Source: a virus
IMG/VR virus record: IMGVR_UViG_3300009154_000259
Location: 1 to 25,024 of that record
Length of the DNA stretch: 25,024 nucleotides
Reading direction: 5' to 3' (one strand)
How positions within the stretch are numbered: the first letter of the stretch is position 1; the number at the start of each line of letters is the position of its first letter. The notes under the pieces are model-generated. The model searched no databases and had not been told where the DNA came from. It was given only the letters and a program-made list of their open reading frames with translations. This document shows, piece by piece, positions 13,490 to 22,747 of the stretch. A program made the translations under genes and the position numbers.

Positions 13490-13518
13490 ATAGTATCATG
13501 AGTTAGATTAAATGTCAA
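13490..13518 (-). promoter_or_regulatory. Early-type promoter for the structured RNA / tRNA-Asn transcript
   Basis: TTGACA (13518-13513), then the ATTTAATC block, spacer 17, TACTAT (13495-13490). Identical in design to the 17-22 kb cassette promoters but without the downstream AUG/AAAGGA part, as expected for a non-coding transcript. The -35 box overlaps the TGA stop of the preceding gene. Confidence 0.9.
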
Positions 13519-16326: not shown

Positions 16327-17190
16327 TTATCCATTCTTACAACAAGTGACCTTGGCGACCTTGCGGAAGTTAGCCGCACCCATCTTGCGGACGTCGGCGA
16401 CCTTGATCACCATGCGGAGCGAGAGCTCGCGGAGGGTGTTCTGCTCGGTCTCGATGAACGACATGACGTCGGCTTTCTCGAGTGGAGTGAGACCAGACAG
16501 GAGACCTGCCTCGACGACCTGACGGATGCGAACCATGTAGTCGCGCTTGGTCTTCATGGCCAGATCGATGTAGTGCGACCGAGAGACCAGAGCCTGAAGG
16601 TGAGGAGCCAGCTTGTGACCGCGATCGATGAGGGCGTCGAAGTCGAGGTTGGTGATGAACACCACGGTGCCCTTGAAGTCGAACGACCGAGGCATGCGCT
16701 CACCGGTATCGTCGTCGATAAGGGAACCCTCAGCACGCCAGCCGACTCGACGGACGCCGGTGGTGTCGCACACGGCCTTGAGGAGGTTCAGGGATACATC
16801 GTCAAAGAACACCGAGTCGGCGTCGTCGAGTACCAAGACCTGACCTGGAGACGAGTGCTGGAACAGGAGCTTGTACAGGCCGGTGGCACGGACGAAACCC
16901 TTGACGAACGTGTGGTTGTCACCGGTCGGGTCGAGCCTGAGGAGTGTCTCCTCGACGGTGTGGGACTTGCCGAGACCAGCTGGACCGGACACGATCATGG
17001 ACCGGCATGAGCCCATGGCACAGGCCTCGGTGAAGGTCGACAGCACGTCGAACCGGTCGGCAATACGCGACCAGATCTGCATGTCGGTCTCGGTCTGAGT
17101 AGCCGGCTTGAGCTGGACTACGTCGAAGGCCTTGGCTGGGGAAGAAGAGCGAGCGGCACGGAAGCCGGCTTTTGGAACACCACGTGGCAT
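16327..17190 (-). CDS. AAA+ ATPase
   Basis: 287 residues from ATG 17190. A basic N-terminal tail (GVPKAGFRAARSSSPAK), then Walker A GPAGLGKSH (about 62-70), Walker B QVLVLDDADSVFF (about 108-120), a sensor-1 type FITNLDFD (about 165-172) and a helical C-terminal lid. It acts as an ATP-driven remodelling protein with unknown client. The first gene next to the early-promoter arrays, it is expressed from its own cassette; a second in-frame ATG 24 bases upstream lies at the predicted transcription start. It is distinct from the clamp-loader ATPase at 3.3 kb. Confidence 0.8.
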   Translation of the reverse strand: MPRGVPKAGFRAARSSSPAKAFDVVQLKPATQTETDMQIWSRIADRFDVLSTFTEACAMGSCRSMIVSGPAGLGKSHTVEETLLRLDPTGDNHTFVKGFVRATGLYKLLFQHSSPGQVLVLDDADSVFFDDVSLNLLKAVCDTTGVRRVGWRAEGSLIDDDTGERMPRSFDFKGTVVFITNLDFDALIDRGHKLAPHLQALVSRSHYIDLAMKTKRDYMVRIRQVVEAGLLSGLTPLEKADVMSFIETEQNTLRELSLRMVIKVADVRKMGAANFRKVAKVTCCKNG

Positions 17191-17220
17191 TGAATTTTCC
17201 TTTGTTTTGATCATATAGTT

Positions 17221-17248
17221 ATTATATCATAAGAAGATTAAATGTCAA
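17221..17248 (-). promoter_or_regulatory. Early cassette promoter (AAA+ gene)
   Basis: TTGACA (17248-17243), ATTTAATC block, spacer 16, TATAAT (17226-17221). AACTAT then ATGATC follow, putting the leader AUG at predicted +1, 24 bases and in frame before the gene start. Confidence 0.92.
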
Positions 17249-17254
17249 CAGGTA

Positions 17255-17440
17255 TTACGCGGCGACCTCCATCAGCTCAGCTTCCATGGCAGAGTCGAGC
17301 TCGTTCGCGAGCTCGCGGTACTCGCTGGCGATCTTTCGGATCTCGTACTGAAGATCCTCGACGTCGTAGAAGTACTTACGCGAGCGACGAATGAGCGACT
17401 CGAGACGCTCGGCGATATCTACTGACTCATTGACTGTCAT
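17255..17440 (-). CDS. Small coiled-coil protein (61 aa)
   Basis: Starts at ATG 17440. Sequence is helical with leucine/isoleucine heptads (VDIAERLESLIRRSRKYFYD, EYRELANELDSAMEAEL), ends MEVAA. No family recognised. Single-gene unit behind an early cassette; the leader AUG lies 24 bases upstream in frame (leader MIKTKGYT). Confidence 0.7.
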   Translation of the reverse strand: MTVNESVDIAERLESLIRRSRKYFYDVEDLQYEIRKIASEYRELANELDSAMEAELMEVAA

Positions 17441-17470
17441 GGTGTATCCCTTAGTTTTGATCATATTAAG

Positions 17471-17498
17471 ATTATATCACAAGTGGATTAAATGTCAA
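17471..17498 (-). promoter_or_regulatory. Early cassette promoter (61-aa gene)
   Basis: TTGACA (17498-17493), ATTTAATCC block, spacer 16, TATAAT (17476-17471), then CTTAAT-ATG. Upstream sits GCTGGCCTA and a copy of the 17-bp near-palindrome. Confidence 0.92.
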
Positions 17499-17507
17499 TA
17501 GGCCAGC

Positions 17508-17524
17508 GGCATGGCAGGTATGAT
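17508..17524. repeat. 17-bp promoter-upstream element, copy a
   Basis: GGCATGGCAGGTATGAT: the near-palindrome GGCAT-N7-ATGCC with its last two bases changed. Nine bases (GCTGGCCTA on the minus strand) separate it from the -35 box. Confidence 0.7.
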
Positions 17525-17676
17525 CAAGAAGCATGGCTCTTTTCCATTGCGATGGTGGTACCACCGTCCGGATGTCGATGCTGGTACACCACTCGGTACC
17601 CCAGAACGGAGTACCGGCGGATCATCTTGTTCAGGTGGTTCCACGACTTACCGGTGAAGGAGACTCTGTTGGACAT
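17524..17676 (-). CDS. Small basic protein (50 aa)
   Basis: MSNRVSFTGKSWNHLNKMIR, then YSVLGYRVVYQHRHPDGG and a short tail. Predicted helix followed by a beta hairpin; no family recognised. It starts one base after the upstream stop. Its TGA falls in the repeated region ahead of the next promoter, which overlaps the start of a 20-codon frame. Confidence 0.6.
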   Translation of the reverse strand: MSNRVSFTGKSWNHLNKMIRRYSVLGYRVVYQHRHPDGGTTIAMEKSHAS

Positions 17677-17677
17677 G

Positions 17678-17893
17678 TCAGATGCCCTCGAAGTACCGGA
17701 CGTCGGCCTCGGTCGTGTAGGGATCGTCAGCTTGGAGACGAGCCGAGAGAGCCTCCGTGAGGCCGTCGATCTTGGCGAGGAATGCGTCGGCCAGCCCGTA
17801 CGACTCGGCGTCCATGGCCACCCCGTAGTTGAGCTCCATGTGGTCGAGGGCTTTGCGGAGCTGGTCCACCGTGAGGTCTGAGTATCTGCTCAT
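17678..17893 (-). CDS. Small acidic helical protein (71 aa)
   Basis: Starts at ATG 17893 (AAAGGA upstream). MSRYSDLTVDQLRKALDHME, then a helical run with GLADAFLAKIDGLTEALSAR and a C-terminus ending VRYFEGI. Not recognised. First of a two-gene unit. Its leader is the most divergent of the set: ATGATGATGAAAGGACAACAG before the start, still in frame but with a different length. Confidence 0.68.
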   Translation of the reverse strand: MSRYSDLTVDQLRKALDHMELNYGVAMDAESYGLADAFLAKIDGLTEALSARLQADDPYTTEADVRYFEGI

Positions 17894-17920
17894 CTGTTGT
17901 CCTTTCATCATCATAATAAG

Positions 17921-17949
17921 ATAGTACCACAGTTCGGATTAAATGTCAA
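17921..17949 (-). promoter_or_regulatory. Early cassette promoter (71-aa gene)
   Basis: TTGACA (17949-17944), ATTTAATCC block, spacer 17, TACTAT (17926-17921), CTTATT then ATG. The -35 box overlaps the TGA of the preceding gene. Confidence 0.92.
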
Positions 17950-18362
17950 CCGAATAGTTCCTCGAGAGCGTACTGACCGAGGTCGGTGTACTCCTTGGCT
18001 CCCCTGCGCTTGAACGACCAGTGAGTACCGTCGAACACGTAGAGGTAGTCGACGTCCCCGTAGTTACCCTCGGCATAGTGGAGGGAGTGGAAGTCTCGAG
18101 AGCCGACGTCGGTCTCACCTCGGTCGCGACCGTAGGCCAGACACCAAGTCTTGTCGGTCGGCAGGTTGAAGTCCTGCTTCTGACCTATCTCGAGACCTAG
18201 GGACGAGAGGTCGCCGAGCTCCATCAGGGACTCGACCTTCTCGAGTGTATTCCAGTGGCGGAGGAGCGTCATGCCTACACCCTCGACGTACCCGTCGAAG
18301 TGGCAGTAGATCGCGGTGATCTTATCTTCCCTCTTGAGGGCGATCATGGAGCGTGTTGACAT
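17946..18362 (-). CDS. Phage hypothetical protein of the STRS-start family
   Basis: 138 residues beginning MSTRSMIALKREDKITAIYC and continuing HFDGYVEGVGMTLLRHW (about 21-37). This start and the xCHxDGYxxGVG segment recur in many phage and prophage proteins of unknown function. The rest holds a beta-rich part with LAYGRDRGETDVGSRDF and YLYVFDGTHWSFKRR. Second gene of its operon, one base after the previous stop. Its stop GGT-TGA merges into the next promoter. Confidence 0.75.
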   Translation of the reverse strand: MSTRSMIALKREDKITAIYCHFDGYVEGVGMTLLRHWNTLEKVESLMELGDLSSLGLEIGQKQDFNLPTDKTWCLAYGRDRGETDVGSRDFHSLHYAEGNYGDVDYLYVFDGTHWSFKRRGAKEYTDLGQYALEELFG

Positions 18363-18363
18363 A

Positions 18364-18639
18364 TCAGGCCGCCTTCAGCATGCTGAGTGGAACCATGTAG
18401 GTGTTGTTGACCGGAGAAGTGACCTGGACCGTGGCCTTCTTGACTCGGATGTTCATGATCTTACCGAGGTAGTCGACACCGCGGTTGGTGAACCTGACGT
18501 CCTGACCTGGCTTGAGGGAGTACTTGGCGACCTTGGCCAGCTTCTCGCGGCGGAACTTGATCGCCTCGAGGAGGTTGTTGATCTGGTCGTGGTCGGCGTC
18601 GAGGGTAACGAACGCGAGGACGGTCTTGAAGTCTGTCAT
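18364..18639 (-). CDS. Small protein with helix and SH3-like C-terminal half
   Basis: 91 residues. The N-terminal half is a helix (DHDQINNLLEAIKFRREKLA). The C-terminal half, KPGQDVRFTNRGVDYLGKIM through VKKATVQVT to MVPLSMLKAA, has the beta-turn pattern of a small SH3/KOW-like barrel. Function unknown; nucleic-acid or protein binding is plausible. First gene of a unit with the STRS-start gene; leader MMKTKENQ in frame upstream. Confidence 0.7.
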   Translation of the reverse strand: MTDFKTVLAFVTLDADHDQINNLLEAIKFRREKLAKVAKYSLKPGQDVRFTNRGVDYLGKIMNIRVKKATVQVTSPVNNTYMVPLSMLKAA

Positions 18640-18669
18640 CTGATTTTCCTTTGTTTTCATCATAATAAG

Positions 18670-18698
18670 ATAGTACCACAGTTTGGATTAAATGTCAA
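18670..18698 (-). promoter_or_regulatory. Early cassette promoter (91-aa gene)
   Basis: TTGACA (18698-18693), ATTTAATCC block, spacer 17, TACTAT (18675-18670), CTTATT then ATGATGAAAACAAAGGA. Confidence 0.92.
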
Positions 18699-18703
18699 TA
18701 GGC

Positions 18704-18904
18704 CTAGCTCTCGACCTGAGTCGGCGACCTGAAGAGCACCGACTCGTGGATGCGGAAGTCGACACCGGTGTAGTTGTGCTTGACCTGCAGGCGCCCGTAC
18801 TCGTGAGCCCCAGCCCATGAGTCGAACACCATCGGATAGCCGACCATTGGGCCCGGAGTACCGTCGTTCTTGACGCGGTGGAAGGTGAGGACGAAGTAGC
18901 TCAT
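18704..18904 (-). CDS. Small hypothetical protein (66 aa)
   Basis: MSYFVLTFHRVKNDGTPGPM start, then a compact alpha/beta pattern with WAGAHEYGRLQVKHN, ending RSPTQVES. Overlaps the previous stop by four bases (ATGA), so its translation is coupled. Unrecognised. Confidence 0.65.
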   Translation of the reverse strand: MSYFVLTFHRVKNDGTPGPMVGYPMVFDSWAGAHEYGRLQVKHNYTGVDFRIHESVLFRSPTQVES

Positions 18905-19107
18905 GCGTCGTACTCAGCGGACATCTCGAAGGCCTCGCGGATGACGTCGGACATGCCACCCTCCTGAACCCCACCCTCTCGGATGAGCCACGCGATGAGA
19001 TCGAGCAGCAGCTCCTCTCCGGCGACCTCGGACAGCTCGTCGAACAGCTTCGACTCTGACTCGTTGAACTCGAGAGGGATGGTGACCTCGATGACTCTGT
19101 TCTTCAT
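18901..19107 (-). CDS. Small acidic helical protein (68 aa)
   Basis: MKNRVIEVTIPLEFNESESK then LFDELSEVAGEELLLDLIAW and a helical acidic C-terminus. Opens with a beta strand followed by helices, as in some small DNA-binding or inhibitor proteins, but no family is recognised. The leader (MIETRSIP) lies in frame 24 bases upstream; the ribosome binding site is AAGGAGC. Confidence 0.68.
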   Translation of the reverse strand: MKNRVIEVTIPLEFNESESKLFDELSEVAGEELLLDLIAWLIREGGVQEGGMSDVIREAFEMSAEYDA

Positions 19108-19138
19108 TGGTATGCTCCTTGTTTCAATCATTAATAAG

Positions 19139-19166
19139 ATTATATCACAAGAGGATTAAATGTCAA
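19139..19166 (-). promoter_or_regulatory. Early cassette promoter (68-aa gene)
   Basis: TTGACA (19166-19161), ATTTAATCC block, spacer 16, TATAAT (19144-19139), then CTTATTA-ATG (one base longer than usual). GCTGGCCTA and an inverted copy of the 17-bp element lie upstream. Confidence 0.9.
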
Positions 19167-19175
19167 TAGGCCAGC

Positions 19176-19192
19176 GACATACCTGCCATGCC
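19176..19192. repeat. 17-bp promoter-upstream element, copy b (inverted core)
   Basis: GACATACCTGCCATGCC, which is the reverse complement of the core found in copies a, c and d, yet flanked by the same GCTGGCCTA and TTGACA on the minus strand. Only the core is flipped. Confidence 0.7.
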
Positions 19193-19198
19193 AGAAGA

Positions 19199-19378
19199 TC
19201 ATACCTCCTCCGAGAACGTGAACACCCACTGGCCGACCGGGCTAGGCCTACCCATGTCCCTAGGTAAGGTGAGTGGCTTTACTCCATACTTACGGATGAG
19301 CATGGCCAGATACACGTGACCCTGACCCTCGGTGAAGGTATCCCTCGATCGAACTACTGTCTTCTTTACTACCTTCAT
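19199..19378 (-). CDS. Small basic protein (59 aa) downstream of the RHH gene
   Basis: MKVVKKTVVRSRDTFTEGQG, then HVYLAMLIRKYGVKPLTLPR and VGQWVFTFSEEV. Overlaps the RHH-protein stop by four bases (ATGA), forming a two-gene operon reminiscent of toxin-antitoxin pairing, but no toxin fold is recognised. Its own stop overlaps a further 20-codon frame (GTATGA). Confidence 0.65.
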   Translation of the reverse strand: MKVVKKTVVRSRDTFTEGQGHVYLAMLIRKYGVKPLTLPRDMGRPSPVGQWVFTFSEEV

Positions 19379-19719
19379 AGCTTTCTACTCCTACCTATCC
19401 AAGCACCTAGGTCAGCACCGACCTCTTGCGAGGCTCTACCAGTATTAAGACCAGTACTAAGACCAGTATCTCGACCAGTATTAAGACCAGTATTAAGACC
19501 AGTCTTACTCTTATCCCTAATATACTGACCAATAGCCTCACGTATACAAGCAGAGGGATCCTTATTCTCTGAGTAGGCTATTCCACTCAGCGTCTCGTAC
19601 ACCATCTCGTTCAGTCTAAACGACACAATCCTACTCTCCATACCACGCTCCGTAGTATAGATCGCAGTGCTCTCATCGTACTTACGGTTCTTCCGCGTTC
19701 TAGTCTCTTTTTTTCTCAT
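19375..19719 (-). CDS. Ribbon-helix-helix DNA-binding protein with C-terminal repeats
   Basis: 114 residues. A basic N-terminus (RKKETRTRKNRKYDES) is followed by an RHH domain: strand RIVSFRLNE (about 30-38), helices MVYETLSGIAYSENKD and PSACIREAIGQYIRD (about 39-69). The C-terminus carries about six four-residue repeats (TGLN/TGRD/TGLS, about 74-96), encoded by a 12-bp DNA minisatellite. RHH proteins are usually autoregulating repressors that bind tandem operators; two TGTATTACA palindromes lie just upstream. The promoter is not of the cassette type. Confidence 0.75.
   Translation of the reverse strand: MRKKETRTRKNRKYDESTAIYTTERGMESRIVSFRLNEMVYETLSGIAYSENKDPSACIREAIGQYIRDKSKTGLNTGLNTGRDTGLSTGLNTGRASQEVGADLGAWIGRSRKL
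19438..19504. repeat. 12-bp minisatellite inside the RHH gene
   Basis: About five and a half units of ACCAGTATTAAG with few changes (one unit is ACCAGTATCTCG), coding for Thr-Gly-Leu-Asn type repeats. Being in multiples of 12, unit gain or loss would keep the frame. Confidence 0.9.
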
Positions 19720-19768
19720 GGCTCCACACAGCTCGGCTCTACCTAATACTGAACCTATTTAGTAGAAC

Positions 19769-19790
19769 TGTAATACAGTTTTGTAATACA
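19769..19790. promoter_or_regulatory. Tandem palindromic operator candidate
   Basis: TGTAATACA at 19769-19777 and 19782-19790, 13 bp apart; each is a TGTA-N-TACA palindrome. Position about 50-70 bases upstream of the RHH gene and the tandem arrangement suit cooperative binding of RHH dimers. Confidence 0.6.
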
Positions 19791-19791
19791 A

Positions 19792-19826
19792 GTCGGCGTC
19801 ACCGGTGTTGCCACCAGCTCGCCGAC
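19792..19826 (-). other. Perfect-stem hairpin upstream of the RHH operator
   Basis: GTCGGCG (19792-19798) pairs with CGCCGAC (19820-19826), and inside CTGGTG/CACCGG closes a GCAA tetraloop on the minus strand. There is no T-run, so it may be a processing or stability element rather than an intrinsic terminator. Confidence 0.55.
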
Positions 19827-19873
19827 CTATAGCTCTACCTGCGTTCTTTCTACTAGGGAGAAAGCATGATCTG

Positions 19874-19921
19874 GAGATCGACCTAGAGAACGACCTAGAG
19901 ATCGACCTAGAGATCGACCTA
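19874..19921. repeat. Four tandem 12-bp repeats (GAGATCGACCTA)
   Basis: Units at 19874-19885, 19886-19897 (GAGAACGACCTA), 19898-19909 and 19910-19921, immediately after the stop of the 106-aa gene. Non-coding on the minus strand. Confidence 0.9.
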
Positions 19922-19925
19922 GCTC

Positions 19926-20246
19926 TCAGCTGTACGTGCGAACCTCCGCGAAGTAGACGTCGAACCGAGAGCCGTGCTCCGGACGAATAGTTTGAGCCGA
20001 GTAGCGCCAGAGGTGACCACCGCGACGATACATCGAGGCGAACTCTGAGTTCTTACCGAGGCGAGCTCGAACCAGAACGCGATACCGTGTCTTGCAGCGA
20101 ACCGGCTTACCAGTCTGAGCTTCACTGACGATCTCGGTGGCTTTCTGCTCGAGGCCCATGAGCTTGGCCTTGACCTTGAGCTCGGAGATACGGGAGTCGG
20201 TGACGTCGGTCGTGGTGAACCGGTAGGCGGAGGTGCGTTGAGTCAT
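19926..20246 (-). CDS. Basic hypothetical protein (106 aa)
   Basis: MTQRTSAYRFTTTDVTDSRI start, a helical KVKAKLMGLEQKATEIVSEA stretch, then a basic beta-rich half (KTRYRVLVRARLGKNSEF, FDVYFAEVRTYS). High Arg/Lys content. Unrecognised. Single-gene unit; the leader equivalent starts with TTG rather than ATG (MNETKEIP), 24 bases upstream in frame. Confidence 0.68.
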   Translation of the reverse strand: MTQRTSAYRFTTTDVTDSRISELKVKAKLMGLEQKATEIVSEAQTGKPVRCKTRYRVLVRARLGKNSEFASMYRRGGHLWRYSAQTIRPEHGSRFDVYFAEVRTYS

Positions 20247-20277
20247 GGGTATTTCCTTTGTTTCATTCAATATAGCT

Positions 20278-20305
20278 ATTATACACGGATTGGATTAAAT
20301 GTCAA
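20278..20305 (-). promoter_or_regulatory. Early cassette promoter (106-aa gene)
   Basis: TTGACA (20305-20300), ATTTAATCC block, spacer 16, TATAAT (20283-20278), then AGCTATA-TTG. The only cassette with TTG in place of ATG at the leader start. Confidence 0.9.
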
Positions 20306-20324
20306 CCAAAAAGACAACCTAGAT

Positions 20325-20352
20325 CACGACCAATATCGCAACCTAGGTCGTG
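20325..20352 (-). terminator. Possible weak terminator
   Basis: CACGACC (20325-20331) pairs with GGTCGTG (20346-20352). On the minus strand a TTGTCTTTTT tract follows about nine bases later, just before the next -35 box. The stem is built from a degenerate 16-bp direct repeat (20316-20331, 20340-20355) carrying CCTAG(A/G)TC. Confidence 0.4.
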
Positions 20353-20364
20353 GCCAGTACCCTA

Positions 20365-20676
20365 TCAGGCGACCAGTTCTTCATGGCCTTCCAAGAATTC
20401 CTCGATGTGACGAGCGACTCGACTGTCCTCGATGGAGTAGAAGGTGAACTCTCCGAGGGAGAATACACAGTCTTTACTGACGTACTCGAAGCCGCCGTAG
20501 TACTCGAGGCCTCGCTTACCGTGAGAACCCTTGGTAGCTATGCAGTCTTCACCGATCCAGATGTGGCCGCAGCGGGGATCGAGGCCGGCCCAAGCGGCGG
20601 TCACGTAGTCCATCTGTTCGACGTGGTCGATGGCAAGGTCGTTGGCCTTGTCGATGAGGGAGGAGATGTCGGTCAT
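20365..20676 (-). CDS. Hypothetical protein (103 aa)
   Basis: MTDISSLIDKANDLAIDHVE helical start, then DPRCGHIWIGEDCIATKGSH and LEYYGGFEYVSKDCVFSLGE (three cysteines near 37, 45 and 72), and a helical acidic tail. The aromatic, beta-rich centre suggests a small binding domain; no family recognised. Leader MIKTKETP in frame 24 bases upstream. Confidence 0.7.
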   Translation of the reverse strand: MTDISSLIDKANDLAIDHVEQMDYVTAAWAGLDPRCGHIWIGEDCIATKGSHGKRGLEYYGGFEYVSKDCVFSLGEFTFYSIEDSRVARHIEEFLEGHEELVA

Positions 20677-20706
20677 TGGGGTTTCCTTTGTTTTGATCAT
20701 ATTAAG

Positions 20707-20735
20707 ATAGTATCATGAGTTGGATTAAATGTCAA
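20707..20735 (-). promoter_or_regulatory. Early cassette promoter (103-aa gene)
   Basis: TTGACA (20735-20730), ATTTAATCC block, spacer 17, TACTAT (20712-20707), CTTAAT then ATGATCAAAACAAAGGA. Confidence 0.92.
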
Positions 20736-20738
20736 CCG

Positions 20739-20771
20739 CTATTTGGCATGGCAGGTATGCCGAGAAGTCAT
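20739..20771 (-). CDS. Possible 10-codon mini-ORF
   Basis: MTSRHTCHAK, preceded by GGGGAGGAGCC, a strong ribosome binding site. It spans promoter-upstream element copy c. It is related to the 20-codon frames before three other cassettes but ends earlier. Translation is unproven. Confidence 0.3.
   Translation of the reverse strand: MTSRHTCHAK
20745..20761. repeat. 17-bp promoter-upstream element, copy c
   Basis: GGCATGGCAGGTATGCC, the most regular copy: arms GGCAT and ATGCC around GGCAGGT. It is nine bases from the -35 box, with a different linker (AAATAGCGG) from copies a, b and d. Confidence 0.75.
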
Positions 20772-20808
20772 GGCTCCTCCCCGAGAGAAAGAAGCGCGCA
20801 TCAGAACC

Positions 20809-20837
20809 ATTCTATCATAAAAAAGAATTAATGTCAA
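20809..20837 (-). promoter_or_regulatory. Early-type promoter without a downstream gene (proximal)
   Basis: TTGACA (20837-20832), ATTAATTC block, spacer 17, TAGAAT (20814-20809). Only a 10-codon frame lies between it and the next promoter. Confidence 0.85.
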
Positions 20838-20869
20838 CTACAAAAAGAGCGCATGGTGCCCGTTCCCAT
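20834..20869 (-). CDS. Possible 11-codon mini-ORF
   Basis: MGTGTMRSFCS with AAGGAAGGGCGAGG before the ATG. Its TGA is part of the next TTGACA box. It lies between two tandem promoters about 95 bases apart. Translation is unproven; listed because it is the only coding potential of this unit. Confidence 0.25.
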   Translation of the reverse strand: MGTGTMRSFCS

Positions 20870-20898
20870 CCTCGCCCTTCCTTCTTTGGATTAAGATT

Positions 20899-20927
20899 AT
20901 ACTACCATAGAAGAGAATTAATGTCAA
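20899..20927 (-). promoter_or_regulatory. Early-type promoter without a downstream gene (distal)
   Basis: TTGACA (20927-20922), ATTAATTC block, spacer 17, TAGTAT (20904-20899). It shares the GGCCTA linker upstream with the cassettes. Followed by an 11-codon frame only. Confidence 0.85.
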
Positions 20928-20929
20928 TA

Positions 20930-20966
20930 GGCCAGCAGGGGAAAAGGAACTAAACCCCCGCTGGCC
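20930..20966 (-). other. Long GC-rich hairpin before the distal promoter
   Basis: GGCCAGC (20930-20936) pairs with GCTGGCC (20960-20966), and GGGG pairs with CCCC inside. Its arm supplies the GCTGGCCTA linker next to -35. It may end the transcript of the 74-aa gene, although no T-run follows. Confidence 0.5.
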
Positions 20967-20980
20967 TCGGCGCGGCCTAG

Positions 20981-21205
20981 TCAGTCCCCACTGACGGTGG
21001 CCGATCTCTTCAGATCTCCCATGATGGCCTGAGCCTGCATGAGGAGCTTCAGCAGCTGCTTCTGGGCCTCACGCTGGCCTCTGTAGGCTCCGGAGGCGTA
21101 GTCGTGCTGGTTGATCCAGTCGGGGAGAGGGGTGGCGACGTCGAGCTGGACGGCCTCCACCATGTTGTTGAACCACCGGATGTCCTCTGCTAGTATGTCT
21201 CTCAT
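20981..21205 (-). CDS. Small helical protein (74 aa)
   Basis: MRDILAEDIRWFNNMVEAVQ, a segment with DWINQHDYASGAYRGQREAQ, and a helix KQLLKLLMQAQAIMGDLKRS. The GxYRGQxEAxxxLLxLL region resembles short helical phage proteins of unknown function. It overlaps the stop of the membrane mini-protein upstream (ATGA) and is the last of a three-gene operon. Confidence 0.7.
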   Translation of the reverse strand: MRDILAEDIRWFNNMVEAVQLDVATPLPDWINQHDYASGAYRGQREAQKQLLKLLMQAQAIMGDLKRSATVSGD

Positions 21206-21312
21206 TGGTTGACGTCCTGAAAGTACTCGGTGATCGCTACCACGGCGAAGAAGGCCAGGAGCGGGAGGATGAAGATCTCGTAGGCGTAGAAGACGGTGAG
21301 GATGGAATGCAT
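21202..21312 (-). CDS. Small membrane protein (36 aa)
   Basis: MHSILTVFYAYEIFILPLLA then FFAVVAITEYFQDVNQ: one membrane helix covering most of the protein. It starts one base after the upstream stop and overlaps the downstream start by four bases, so it is embedded in an operon and very likely translated despite its size. Confidence 0.7.
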   Translation of the reverse strand: MHSILTVFYAYEIFILPLLAFFAVVAITEYFQDVNQ

Positions 21313-21313
21313 G

Positions 21314-21523
21314 TCACTGTCCCTTCGTCAGGAGGTCGCGGAGGAGGTAGAAGGTGGTGAGCATCTCGTCGAGCACGTTGATCTCAGTGATCTGTGCCTC
21401 GGTGGGACGGGTGAACGTGTCGAGCATGGCCAGACGCGCCTTCATGACGCCGATGCGGTAGGAGACGAGGAGGGTGGGGTCGGCGTAGATCTTGTCCATT
21501 GCGGACATTGCGGTCTGAGTCAT
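21314..21523 (-). CDS. Small helical protein (69 aa)
   Basis: MTQTAMSAMDKIYADPTLLV then a helical stretch (IGVMKARLAMLDTFTRPTEA) and TEINVLDEMLTTFYLLRDLL. All-helical pattern; not recognised. First gene of a three-gene unit; leader MIETKETP in frame 24 bases upstream. Confidence 0.7.
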   Translation of the reverse strand: MTQTAMSAMDKIYADPTLLVSYRIGVMKARLAMLDTFTRPTEAQITEINVLDEMLTTFYLLRDLLTKGQ

Positions 21524-21553
21524 GGGGGTTTCCTTTGTTTCGATCATATTAAG

Positions 21554-21582
21554 ATAGTACCACAGGTTGGATTAAATGTCAA
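21554..21582 (-). promoter_or_regulatory. Early cassette promoter (69-aa gene)
   Basis: TTGACA (21582-21577), ATTTAATCC block, spacer 17, TACTAT (21559-21554), CTTAAT then ATGATCGAAACAAAGGA. The -35 box overlaps the TGA of the preceding gene. Confidence 0.92.
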
Positions 21583-21791
21583 CCTGTCATATCCTCGGCG
21601 TTGGCGATAGCCTCCTCGACGATCTCATCGACCGGGATATCACAGCCGAGCTGCTCCTGGATGTACGACTGGAGGGTGCCGGCGATGAGCTCCTCGATGA
21701 GAGCGCGATCGGCGGATGAGCCTGCGATGGCTGCTAGAACTTCAGCGGAGAGGGGGAAGTCGATATCGACCGTGAGAGAGATGGTATTCAT
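21579..21791 (-). CDS. Small acidic protein (70 aa)
   Basis: MNTISLTVDIDFPLSAEVLA, then helices AAIAGSSADRALIEELIAGT and VDEIVEEAIANAEDMTG. Opens with a strand, then three helices, strongly acidic. Not recognised. Single-gene unit at the boundary of the two divergent arrays; leader MIETKEIP in frame. Confidence 0.7.
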   Translation of the reverse strand: MNTISLTVDIDFPLSAEVLAAIAGSSADRALIEELIAGTLQSYIQEQLGCDIPVDEIVEEAIANAEDMTG

Positions 21792-21821
21792 GGGGATTTC
21801 CTTTGTTTCGATCATATTAAG

Positions 21822-21849
21822 ATTATATCATAAGTGGATTAAATGTCAA
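21822..21849 (-). promoter_or_regulatory. Early cassette promoter (70-aa gene)
   Basis: TTGACA (21849-21844), ATTTAATCC block, spacer 16, TATAAT (21827-21822), CTTAAT then ATG. Back-to-back with the plus-strand promoter at 21896. Confidence 0.92.
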
Positions 21850-21858
21850 TAGGCCAGC

Positions 21859-21875
21859 GGCATGGCAGGCGTGCC
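21859..21875. repeat. 17-bp promoter-upstream element, copy d
   Basis: GGCATGGCAGGCGTGCC: the near-palindrome with compensating changes in the right arm, lying between the two divergent promoters. Confidence 0.7.
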
Positions 21876-21895
21876 AAAAAAGCATGGCTCCGGGG

Positions 21896-21923
21896 TTGAC
21901 AAATATGCTGGTTTGTGTATAAT
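21896..21923 (+). promoter_or_regulatory. Early cassette promoter, plus-strand array
   Basis: TTGACA (21896-21901), spacer 16, TATAAT (21918-21923), AGCTAT then ATGATCAAAACAAAGGA. It lacks the ATTTAATCC block but keeps the leader. Confidence 0.92.
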
Positions 21924-21953
21924 AGCTATATGATCAAAACAAAGGAACACCAC

Positions 21954-22190
21954 ATGATTAAGACGTCCATCCTCATGGAATCCATCGAGTGCGTAGGGTA
22001 CGCCCACTTCACCGCGCTGGCCTCCGACCTCAATTGGAACGCCGACTTCCAGCCCGACTTCGTCGACGTCGAGGGGCTCGGCAACGGGAACTCCCTCCAG
22101 CTGGTCGCCGTTACTAACTTCGGCATGGTGAAGTCCCTCAAGTACAGCCAGCCCGGAGCCTTCCTCTACCTCACGGTGATCGGTGCCTGA
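21954..22190 (+). CDS. Hypothetical protein (78 aa)
   Basis: Starts at ATG 21954 after AAAGGA. MIKTSILMESIECVGYAHFT, a helical LASDLNWNADFQPDFVDVEG stretch and a beta-rich end (NSLQLVAVTNFGMVKSL, AFLYLTVIGA). Not recognised. First gene of the plus-strand array; leader MIKTKEHH in frame 24 bases upstream. Confidence 0.7.
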   Translation: MIKTSILMESIECVGYAHFTALASDLNWNADFQPDFVDVEGLGNGNSLQLVAVTNFGMVKSLKYSQPGAFLYLTVIGA

Positions 22191-22203
22191 GGCATGCCAG
22201 TCC

Positions 22204-22220
22204 GGCATGGGAGGTATGCC
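22204..22220. repeat. 17-bp promoter-upstream element, copy e
   Basis: GGCATGGGAGGTATGCC, directly abutting TTGACA with no linker, on the plus strand. A second GGCATGCC palindrome precedes it (22192-22199). Confidence 0.72.
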
Positions 22221-22249
22221 TTGACATTTAATCCAGGGCGTGTTATACT
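22221..22249 (+). promoter_or_regulatory. Early cassette promoter (155-aa gene and following operon)
   Basis: TTGACA (22221-22226), ATTTAATCC block, spacer 17, TATACT (22244-22249), AGTTAT then ATGATGAAAACAGGA. No further promoter of this type is visible to the end of the window, so it may drive the eleven genes beyond as well. Confidence 0.92.
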
Positions 22250-22279
22250 AGTTATATGATGAAAACAGGAGAAAATCAC

Positions 22280-22747
22280 ATGAACGTCACAGTCAACTAC
22301 GAGGACTTCGCGTCCCGCGTCGCCCAGAACGGCTTCACCCCGTCCCAGTACTCCAAGTCGGTGTACTTCGCCAAGACCCCCAACGCGGGCACGGTGGCCC
22401 TGAACCTGAACAACTTCACGTTCACGGTCGGCGTCGGCACTAAGCACCTCGAGGTCATCACGGCCGCGGTCGAGGCGGCCGGCTGGACGGTGGTCAAGCG
22501 CGTCAAGGGCTGGTCGATCGTGGCCATCGACCCCTCGGCTCAGTGCCAGGACGCCGTCCTCGGTCAGTTCATGGACGTCGTCCTCGGGGTGATTGCGGCG
22601 GTACCCGCCAAGGCCGAGAAGATCAAGACGGTCAAGATGTCGACCATCGTAAAGAAGGTCGGTAAGTCGTTCGCCATGACTCAGGCCATCAAGGCTCGCA
22701 ACCTCGAGACGATGAAGGCCGTCGCTCAGGCGCTGAGGGCTGCCTGA
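22280..22747 (+). CDS. Hypothetical protein (155 aa)
   Basis: MNVTVNYEDFASRVAQNGFT start. The N-terminal half is alpha/beta (SVYFAKTPNAGTVALNLNNF, EVITAAVEAAGWTVVKRVKG); the C-terminal half is basic and helical (EKIKTVKMSTIVKKVGKSFA, then ALRAA). Strongly GC-ending codons. No family recognised. The basic tail might bind nucleic acid. Leader MMKTGENH in frame 24 bases upstream. Its stop overlaps the next start (TGATG). Confidence 0.72.
   Translation: MNVTVNYEDFASRVAQNGFTPSQYSKSVYFAKTPNAGTVALNLNNFTFTVGVGTKHLEVITAAVEAAGWTVVKRVKGWSIVAIDPSAQCQDAVLGQFMDVVLGVIAAVPAKAEKIKTVKMSTIVKKVGKSFAMTQAIKARNLETMKAVAQALRAA

Follow-up and report, generated by a model that had tools for sequence, protein, structure and literature searches.

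An additional AUG at the expected mRNA start, in frame with a Shine-Dalgarno start a few codons further on, suggests two ribosome-loading routes for early genes in many uncultured phages

Promoter cassettes in the small-gene region

The window, by which we mean the whole stretch of 25,024 nucleotides (nt) that was analysed, is a 25 kb record of an uncultured virus (IMG/VR record IMGVR_UViG_3300009154_000259), and the element considered here is a promoter cassette common to eleven of the small genes that fill the region discussed. Homologues of the T4 proteins gp45, gp44, gp62 and RegA are present, which marks the window as T4-like, and a cluster of tRNA genes lies at 9-15 kb. A base-by-base check confirmed the eleven gene starts of the preliminary description, with their TTGACA-type promoters and a gap of 6-7 nt between the -10 box and the first ATG. 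Nine cassettes lie on the minus strand and two on the plus strand. In every cassette a Shine-Dalgarno (SD) sequence, AAGGA or AGGAG, precedes a second ATG at normal spacing; the first and second start codons are called AUG1 and AUG2 below. Many of the cassette genes recur in the related records G047 (43.6 kb) and G048 (150.6 kb). The cassettes are the following, with the distance from AUG1 to AUG2 and the leader peptide.

17188-17248, minus strand: cassette 1, with TTGACA at 17248-17243, TATAAT, AUG1 at 17214, SD AAAGGA and AUG2 at 17190; 24 nt, MIKTKENS
16327-17190, minus strand: gene of cassette 1, AAA ATPase, phrog_1250
17438-17498, minus strand: cassette 2, AUG1 at 17464, AUG2 at 17440; 24 nt, MIKTKGYT
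17891-17949, minus strand: cassette 3, AUG1 at 17914, AUG2 at 17893; 21 nt, MMMKGQQ; identical leader in G047
18637-18698, minus strand: cassette 4, AUG1 at 18663, AUG2 at 18639; 24 nt, MMKTKENQ; orthologues in G047 and G048 likewise 24 nt and in frame
19105-19166, minus strand: cassette 5, AUG1 at 19131 (7 nt past the -10 box), AUG2 at 19107; 24 nt, MIETRSIP
20244-20305, minus strand: cassette 6, the exception, AUU at +1, UUG (20270) at +2, AUG2 at 20246; AUC at +1 in the orthologues of the two relatives
20674-20735, minus strand: cassette 7, AUG1 at 20700, AUG2 at 20676; 24 nt, MIKTKETP
21521-21582, minus strand: cassette 8, AUG1 at 21547, AUG2 at 21523; 24 nt, MIETKETP; 21 nt, likewise in frame, in the G047 and G048 orthologues
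21789-21849, minus strand: cassette 9, AUG1 at 21815, AUG2 at 21791; 24 nt, MIETKEIP
21896-21956, plus strand: cassette 10, AUG1 at 21930, AUG2 at 21954; 24 nt, MIKTKEHH
22221-22282, plus strand: cassette 11, AUG1 at 22256, AUG2 at 22280 (gene 22280-22747); 24 nt, MMKTGENH

The promoter spacer starts with TTTAATC in ten of the eleven, as had been described, the exception being the promoter at 21896. The first triplet is ATG in ten cassettes and TTG in one (20246). These triplets had been read correctly, but the TTG cassette has AUU at +1 and places its UUG at +2; since the orthologues have AUC at +1, this cassette is not to be counted as one with a 5' AUG. The 24-nt in-frame spacing previously noted for ten cassettes (TTG counted) holds for nine ATG cassettes and the TTG cassette, and the remaining one, before the 17893 gene, has 21 nt and is also in frame, so all eleven leaders are in frame and free of stop codons. 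Given the distance of 6-7 nt from the -10 box, the A of the first ATG falls at the usual sigma-70 start position, as had been proposed, and in ten of the eleven cassettes the AUG is predicted to lie at, or at most 3 nt from, the mRNA 5' end. Position +1 is taken from the -10 spacing throughout, and all the evidence presented consists of sequence statistics.

Promoters of this kind number 14 in the window as compared to 3.7 +/- 1.8 in shuffled sequences. The eleven cassettes are diverged copies of each other, 62-87% alike over 42-103 nt. Because they are paralogous, their common phase may be inherited and does not amount to eleven independent observations, so that evidence from other phages is needed.

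Cassettes in close relatives

In G047 and G048 the type of cassette changes from gene to gene, and orthologous genes carry different types. When the leader of the relatives is 21 or 24 nt long the triplet at +1 is usually AUG, whereas leaders of 22 or 23 nt usually have AUA or AUC. The AAA ATPase gene illustrates this, with AUG and 24 nt in the window and AUA and 23 nt in both relatives. Over the distinct leaders of the three records, 21 have AUG in frame, 4 AUG out of frame, 4 a non-AUG triplet in frame and 13 a non-AUG triplet out of frame (Fisher p = 1.2e-4, uncorrected for kinship). The comparison of related phages that had been suggested earlier thus gives an AUG that tracks in-frame leaders, with the exceptions weighed below; one of these, G047 27186 (AUG, 23 nt), has the appearance of a hybrid between two types of cassette.

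No close DNA relatives were found among named phages. Judged by its clamp loader, the nearest cultured relative is Stenotrophomonas phage DLP6. The closest record, G001 (104 kb, with an identical clamp loader), gave no match to the promoter pattern and is estimated to stop just short of the cassette region. With blastn the leader matched T5-like phages inside a coding sequence, and this match was discarded as irrelevant.

Frame-dependent choice of the third base of AUG1 in unrelated phages

For an independent comparison we used 550 phage gene families, leaving out the window family and promoters selected via the ATG pattern, together with an unbiased subset of 283 gene families, drawn from viral loci (3.9 Mb) that were not picked for the feature, again with the window family excluded. 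These loci are uncultured fragments, and clustering by gene family lowers the effect of kinship without abolishing it. In the subset, an in-frame, stop-free ATG at offset 6 past the -10 box occurs in 24 families, where 1.9 are expected from other offsets. This ratio over-counts, since A and T themselves are preferred at +1 and +2: position +1 is A in 56% of cases, and among 429 promoters ATA occurs 66, ATC 38, ATG 38 and ATT 18 times. An initial reading that AUG as such is enriched at +1 was corrected for this reason, as ATA, ATC and ATT are enriched there too.

The proper comparison is therefore the frequency of G as third base, given AT at +1 and +2. Among such promoters in the 550 families, G follows in 37 of 71 cases (52%) with an in-frame open leader as compared to 17 of 150 (11%) with a leader that is out of frame or contains a stop (odds ratio 8.5, p = 2e-10). 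With about 20% AUG expected, there is an excess of AUG in frame and a deficit out of frame. Within the 283-family subset, significance is reached at offset 6, the predicted +1, but offsets 4, 5, 7 and 8 show no significant effect; at offset 9 p = 0.016, which reflects AUGAUG doublets. Furthermore, the ratio of open to closed in-frame leaders is 37:1 with AUG and 34:29 with AUA, AUC or AUU (p = 9e-7). In these comparisons the first AUG shows the behaviour expected of a translation start.

The same data bear on a purely transcriptional explanation, according to which the AUG only reflects the start-site sequence preferred in a promoter/SD cassette copied from gene to gene, the 24-nt phase being inherited along with it. 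The strong preference for AT at +1/+2 fits this explanation, as do the divergence of the window cassettes from common copies and the other cassette types carried by orthologues in the relatives; it also resembles the reported shuffling of promoter early stem-loop (PeSL) elements in T4-like phages, as cited in PMC4503421. Neither a frame-dependent G at +3 over 550 gene families nor leader lengths that vary by threes would be predicted by it, and we regard it as disfavoured and improbable.

Leader lengths varying in this way were seen in a phase-blind scan, for which the pattern was a promoter followed by ATGATG and AGGA. Among the matches listed, 45 of 67 distinct SD-start sites are in phase, with in-phase leaders of 18, 21, 24, 27, 30, 33 or 51 nt, and 33 of 48 are in phase (p = 6e-7) when each gene family is counted once. 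Behind these sites are genes for CobS-like proteins and AAA ATPases, one gene whose product we read as VWA-type, and many unknowns. When 84,980 cellular genomes were scanned in the same manner, the strict pattern gave 22 distinct matches, of which 2 were open and in frame, with no in-frame excess.

Sequence evidence for possible initiation at both AUG codons

An ATG at offset 6 opens 77 long open reading frames (ORFs), whereas at other offsets the number is 2-34 and mostly below 16; the size of this class indicates that leaderless genes are common in these phages. In 51 of the 77 the ORF is purely leaderless, and in a random viral sample 82 of 120 ATG codons located 6 nt past a TATNAT match open a long ORF lacking an SD start (control offset, 26 of 119). 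Purely leaderless examples among uncultured viral loci are L324, L370, L425 and L427. The abundance of such genes would agree with an alternative in which the cassette genes are simply leaderless from AUG1 and the SD-ATG behind it is there by accident. Within 50 nt, however, another in-frame SD-ATG follows in 24 of the 77 offset-6 genes (31%) as compared to 13 of 571 ordinary SD-led genes (2.3%; p = 2e-15), and homologues of the AAA ATPase gene in phages that do not have AUG1 start at AUG2 (MPRGV or MPRGI), which makes an accidental second start very unlikely. That relatives without AUG1 keep AUG2 supports the SD start at AUG2 behaving as a real one.

The leader peptides found between the two starts vary widely (MMKERD, MMNKEM, MMKGNG, MMIKKENE, MMRNNQGDC) and have little in common beyond the need for an in-frame SD. 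The absence of conservation beyond SD-imposed residues argues against a functional leader peptide. It also bears on the proposal that the long N-terminal form has a function in its own right, as one of an isoform pair like that of lambda S (S107/S105), in which two codons separate the starts and the two forms oppose each other. The cassettes resemble lambda S in having two in-frame starts and hence two N-terminal forms; frame and openness are maintained, and the window peptides are alike (MIKTKE or MIETKE). Unlike lambda S, the device is common to many unrelated genes, with diverse leaders, starts that are 6-11 codons apart and one start that is 5'-terminal, and we consider a role for the long form to be highly doubtful.

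The presence of AUG1 makes no difference to SD strength, and the predicted folding leaves the 5' end mostly unpaired, both of which agree with the dual-mode start proposed below. The idea that AUG1 compensates for a weak SD was rejected, SD strength being the same. Unchanged SD strength also agrees with ribosome standby, in which the 5' AUG would capture ribosomes for the nearby SD start while giving little or no product of its own; the in-frame arrangement would then matter only since occasional initiation at AUG1 would otherwise interfere. This alternative stays alive because of work on Escherichia coli ptrB, in which the 5' AUG is needed for downstream expression although the upstream ORF (uORF) is barely translated: a change of this AUG to AUC leaves less than 8% of downstream expression, and a start-stop mutant regains 40% (PMC4965119). 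Two comparisons lend standby or coupling weak support: uORFs of out-of-frame AUG cassettes stop early in 3 of 53 cases against 30 of 119 (p = 0.003), and an ATGA stop-start overlap occurs in 16 of 53 out-of-frame AUG cassettes against 17 of 119 (p = 0.02). A firmer initial reading, in which AUG2 is where out-of-frame uORFs end (p = 0.0025), weakened to p = 0.05 with better controls, closeness of the stop to AUG2 being marginal once early stops are excluded. Moreover, a capture site should be nearly frame-blind, whereas enrichment of AUG1 is confined to in-frame leaders (52%, with about 20% expected), and these leaders are kept open. Standby thus appears rather unlikely as the main function.

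Related promoters and neighbouring elements

Promoters of the same family also occur in the window without a cassette gene, and the following features belong to them.

20739-20837, minus strand: promoter of the same family whose AUG, at +2 (20801), is in frame with an SD-led mini-ORF starting 30 nt further on
20771-20739, minus strand: SD-preceded mini-ORF encoding MTSRHTCHAK and ending in a stop; homologue in G047 (24195), 18 nt, in frame
20899-20927, minus strand: same-family promoter without AUG at +1 (AAUCCAAAG...), used as a control
13490-13518, minus strand: same-family promoter without AUG, AUAAUCUGA, upstream of a tRNA-Asn gene, used as a control

Three promoters (13518, 20837 and 20927) had been described as lacking the AUG, which is correct for 13518 and 20927; the 20837 promoter has one at +2, in frame. 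The accompanying conclusion that the AUG is not simply part of the promoter does not stand as it was worded, since the A and T reflect a general start-site preference and the 20837 promoter carries an AUG.

The promoter at 20899-20927, which also occurs in G047 (24073), drives a conserved short transcript (AAUCCAAAGAAGGA...) that holds no sizeable ORF and is possibly a small RNA; Rfam gave no match to it. Ahead of the MSMHLAPV gene lies another same-family promoter (14366-14327, minus strand), whose +1 triplet is AUA; an ATG at +4 opens a tiny uORF that runs into an ATGA overlap in the window and stops 2 nt short of the start in the homologues G047 31136 and G048 20917. Repeats of the form GGCATGGCAGGTATGCC...CATGGCTCC, partly hairpin-forming, are found upstream of promoters at 17508-17540, 20745-20777 and 21859-21891 and are possibly PeSL-type terminators or RNA elements. 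Near three window promoters there are GGCATGGCAGG repeats. A simple scan found 3 terminator-like sites in the window as compared to 3.5 expected, and stem-loops are not above chance. Two arrays of 12-nt repeats, of the TAAGACCAGTAT and GACCTAGAGATC types, are located in a non-cassette region at 19434-19515 and 19863-19922.

Comparison with known initiation systems

Like the leaderless lambda cI mRNA, which is not known to possess a second SD-led start, the cassettes have an AUG at the predicted 5' end, 7 nt past the -10 box. They differ from lambda cI and from the leaderless class in having both a 5' AUG and an SD-led second ATG.

The closest parallel is that of Beck, Fleming and Janssen (2016), who reported 70S ribosome binding and translation at the 5'-terminal AUG (5'-uAUG) of SD-led E. 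coli mRNAs, leaderless-type initiation being demonstrated by lacZ fusion and 70S toeprinting (PMC4965119). Such a 5'-uAUG was found on 115 of 3456 E. coli transcripts, and out-of-frame uORFs alone were chosen (PMC4965119). The phage cassettes share with these mRNAs an AUG at or within 3 nt of the (here predicted) 5' end followed by an SD-led start. Unlike the E. coli set, the phage AUG is in frame, is part of a repeated promoter cassette and shows frame-dependent selection. Whereas the 5'-terminal AUG on an SD-led mRNA was thus already known, its in-frame form recurring by selection in phages seems to be new, and a recurring phage feature of this kind appears to be undescribed in the open-licence literature.

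The eleven promoters also recall the PeSL cassettes of T4-like phages (Arbiol 2010, Comeau 2014; both as cited in PMC4503421), in which early promoters are likewise repeated ahead of small, variable genes. Unlike in PeSL cassettes, stem-loops do not exceed chance by the simple scan.

A probable dual-mode translation start

Taken as a whole, the cassette is probably a dual-mode translation start, leaderless at AUG1 and SD-led at AUG2. Sigma-70 polymerase would start at the A located 7 nt past the -10 box, so that the mRNA would begin with AUG or AUGAUG. This AUG would load a ribosome by the leaderless route, while the SD 10-15 nt downstream would bring 30S subunits to the second AUG, and both routes would lead to one protein with or without 6-9 additional N-terminal residues. 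With the two starts in frame, initiation at the 5' end would never be wasted. A leaderless AUG1 combined with an SD-led AUG2 had been put forward in the preliminary description and is partly supported, in that both codons behave as starts in the comparative tests. The exact mRNA 5' end, the use of both starts during infection and a benefit such as redundant or faster loading of early mRNAs are what we infer from these patterns.

Several observations weigh against this interpretation. The A and T of AUG1 are largely a transcription-start preference, so that the translational signal is in the G only, and outside the relatives the depletion of out-of-frame AUG is mild (11% as compared to about 20% expected). 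Out-of-frame leaders are seen in four AUG cassettes of the two relatives. The cassette was not found in 15 named phages tested, which include Stenotrophomonas phage DLP6, T4, RB49, KVP40, phiM12, phiM9, Syn9, S-PM2, P-SSM2, Melnitz-3 and PA5oct. A looser random viral sample, chosen only by ATG at +1, gave no in-frame excess among its 17 SD-start members, which indicates that the pattern is concentrated in particular phages.

A further proposal, which we advance tentatively as a possibility, is that certain lineages of large phages have a dedicated fail-safe start, in which 70S leaderless and 30S SD-led initiation give an identical early protein. Early proteins would then still be made if one route were blocked, for example by host defence, starvation or a takeover of initiation factors.

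If the dual-mode reading is correct, phage mRNAs have evolved to take ribosomes by two mechanistically different routes for one gene, and the in-frame phase provides a signature by which cases can be counted in any genome sequence. A practical effect would be on the annotation of phage gene starts. The cassette would also offer a direct handle on an old question, the importance in vivo of leaderless (70S) initiation for bacteria that also use SD sequences, because a change of AUG1 to AUC spares the promoter, the SD and the protein.

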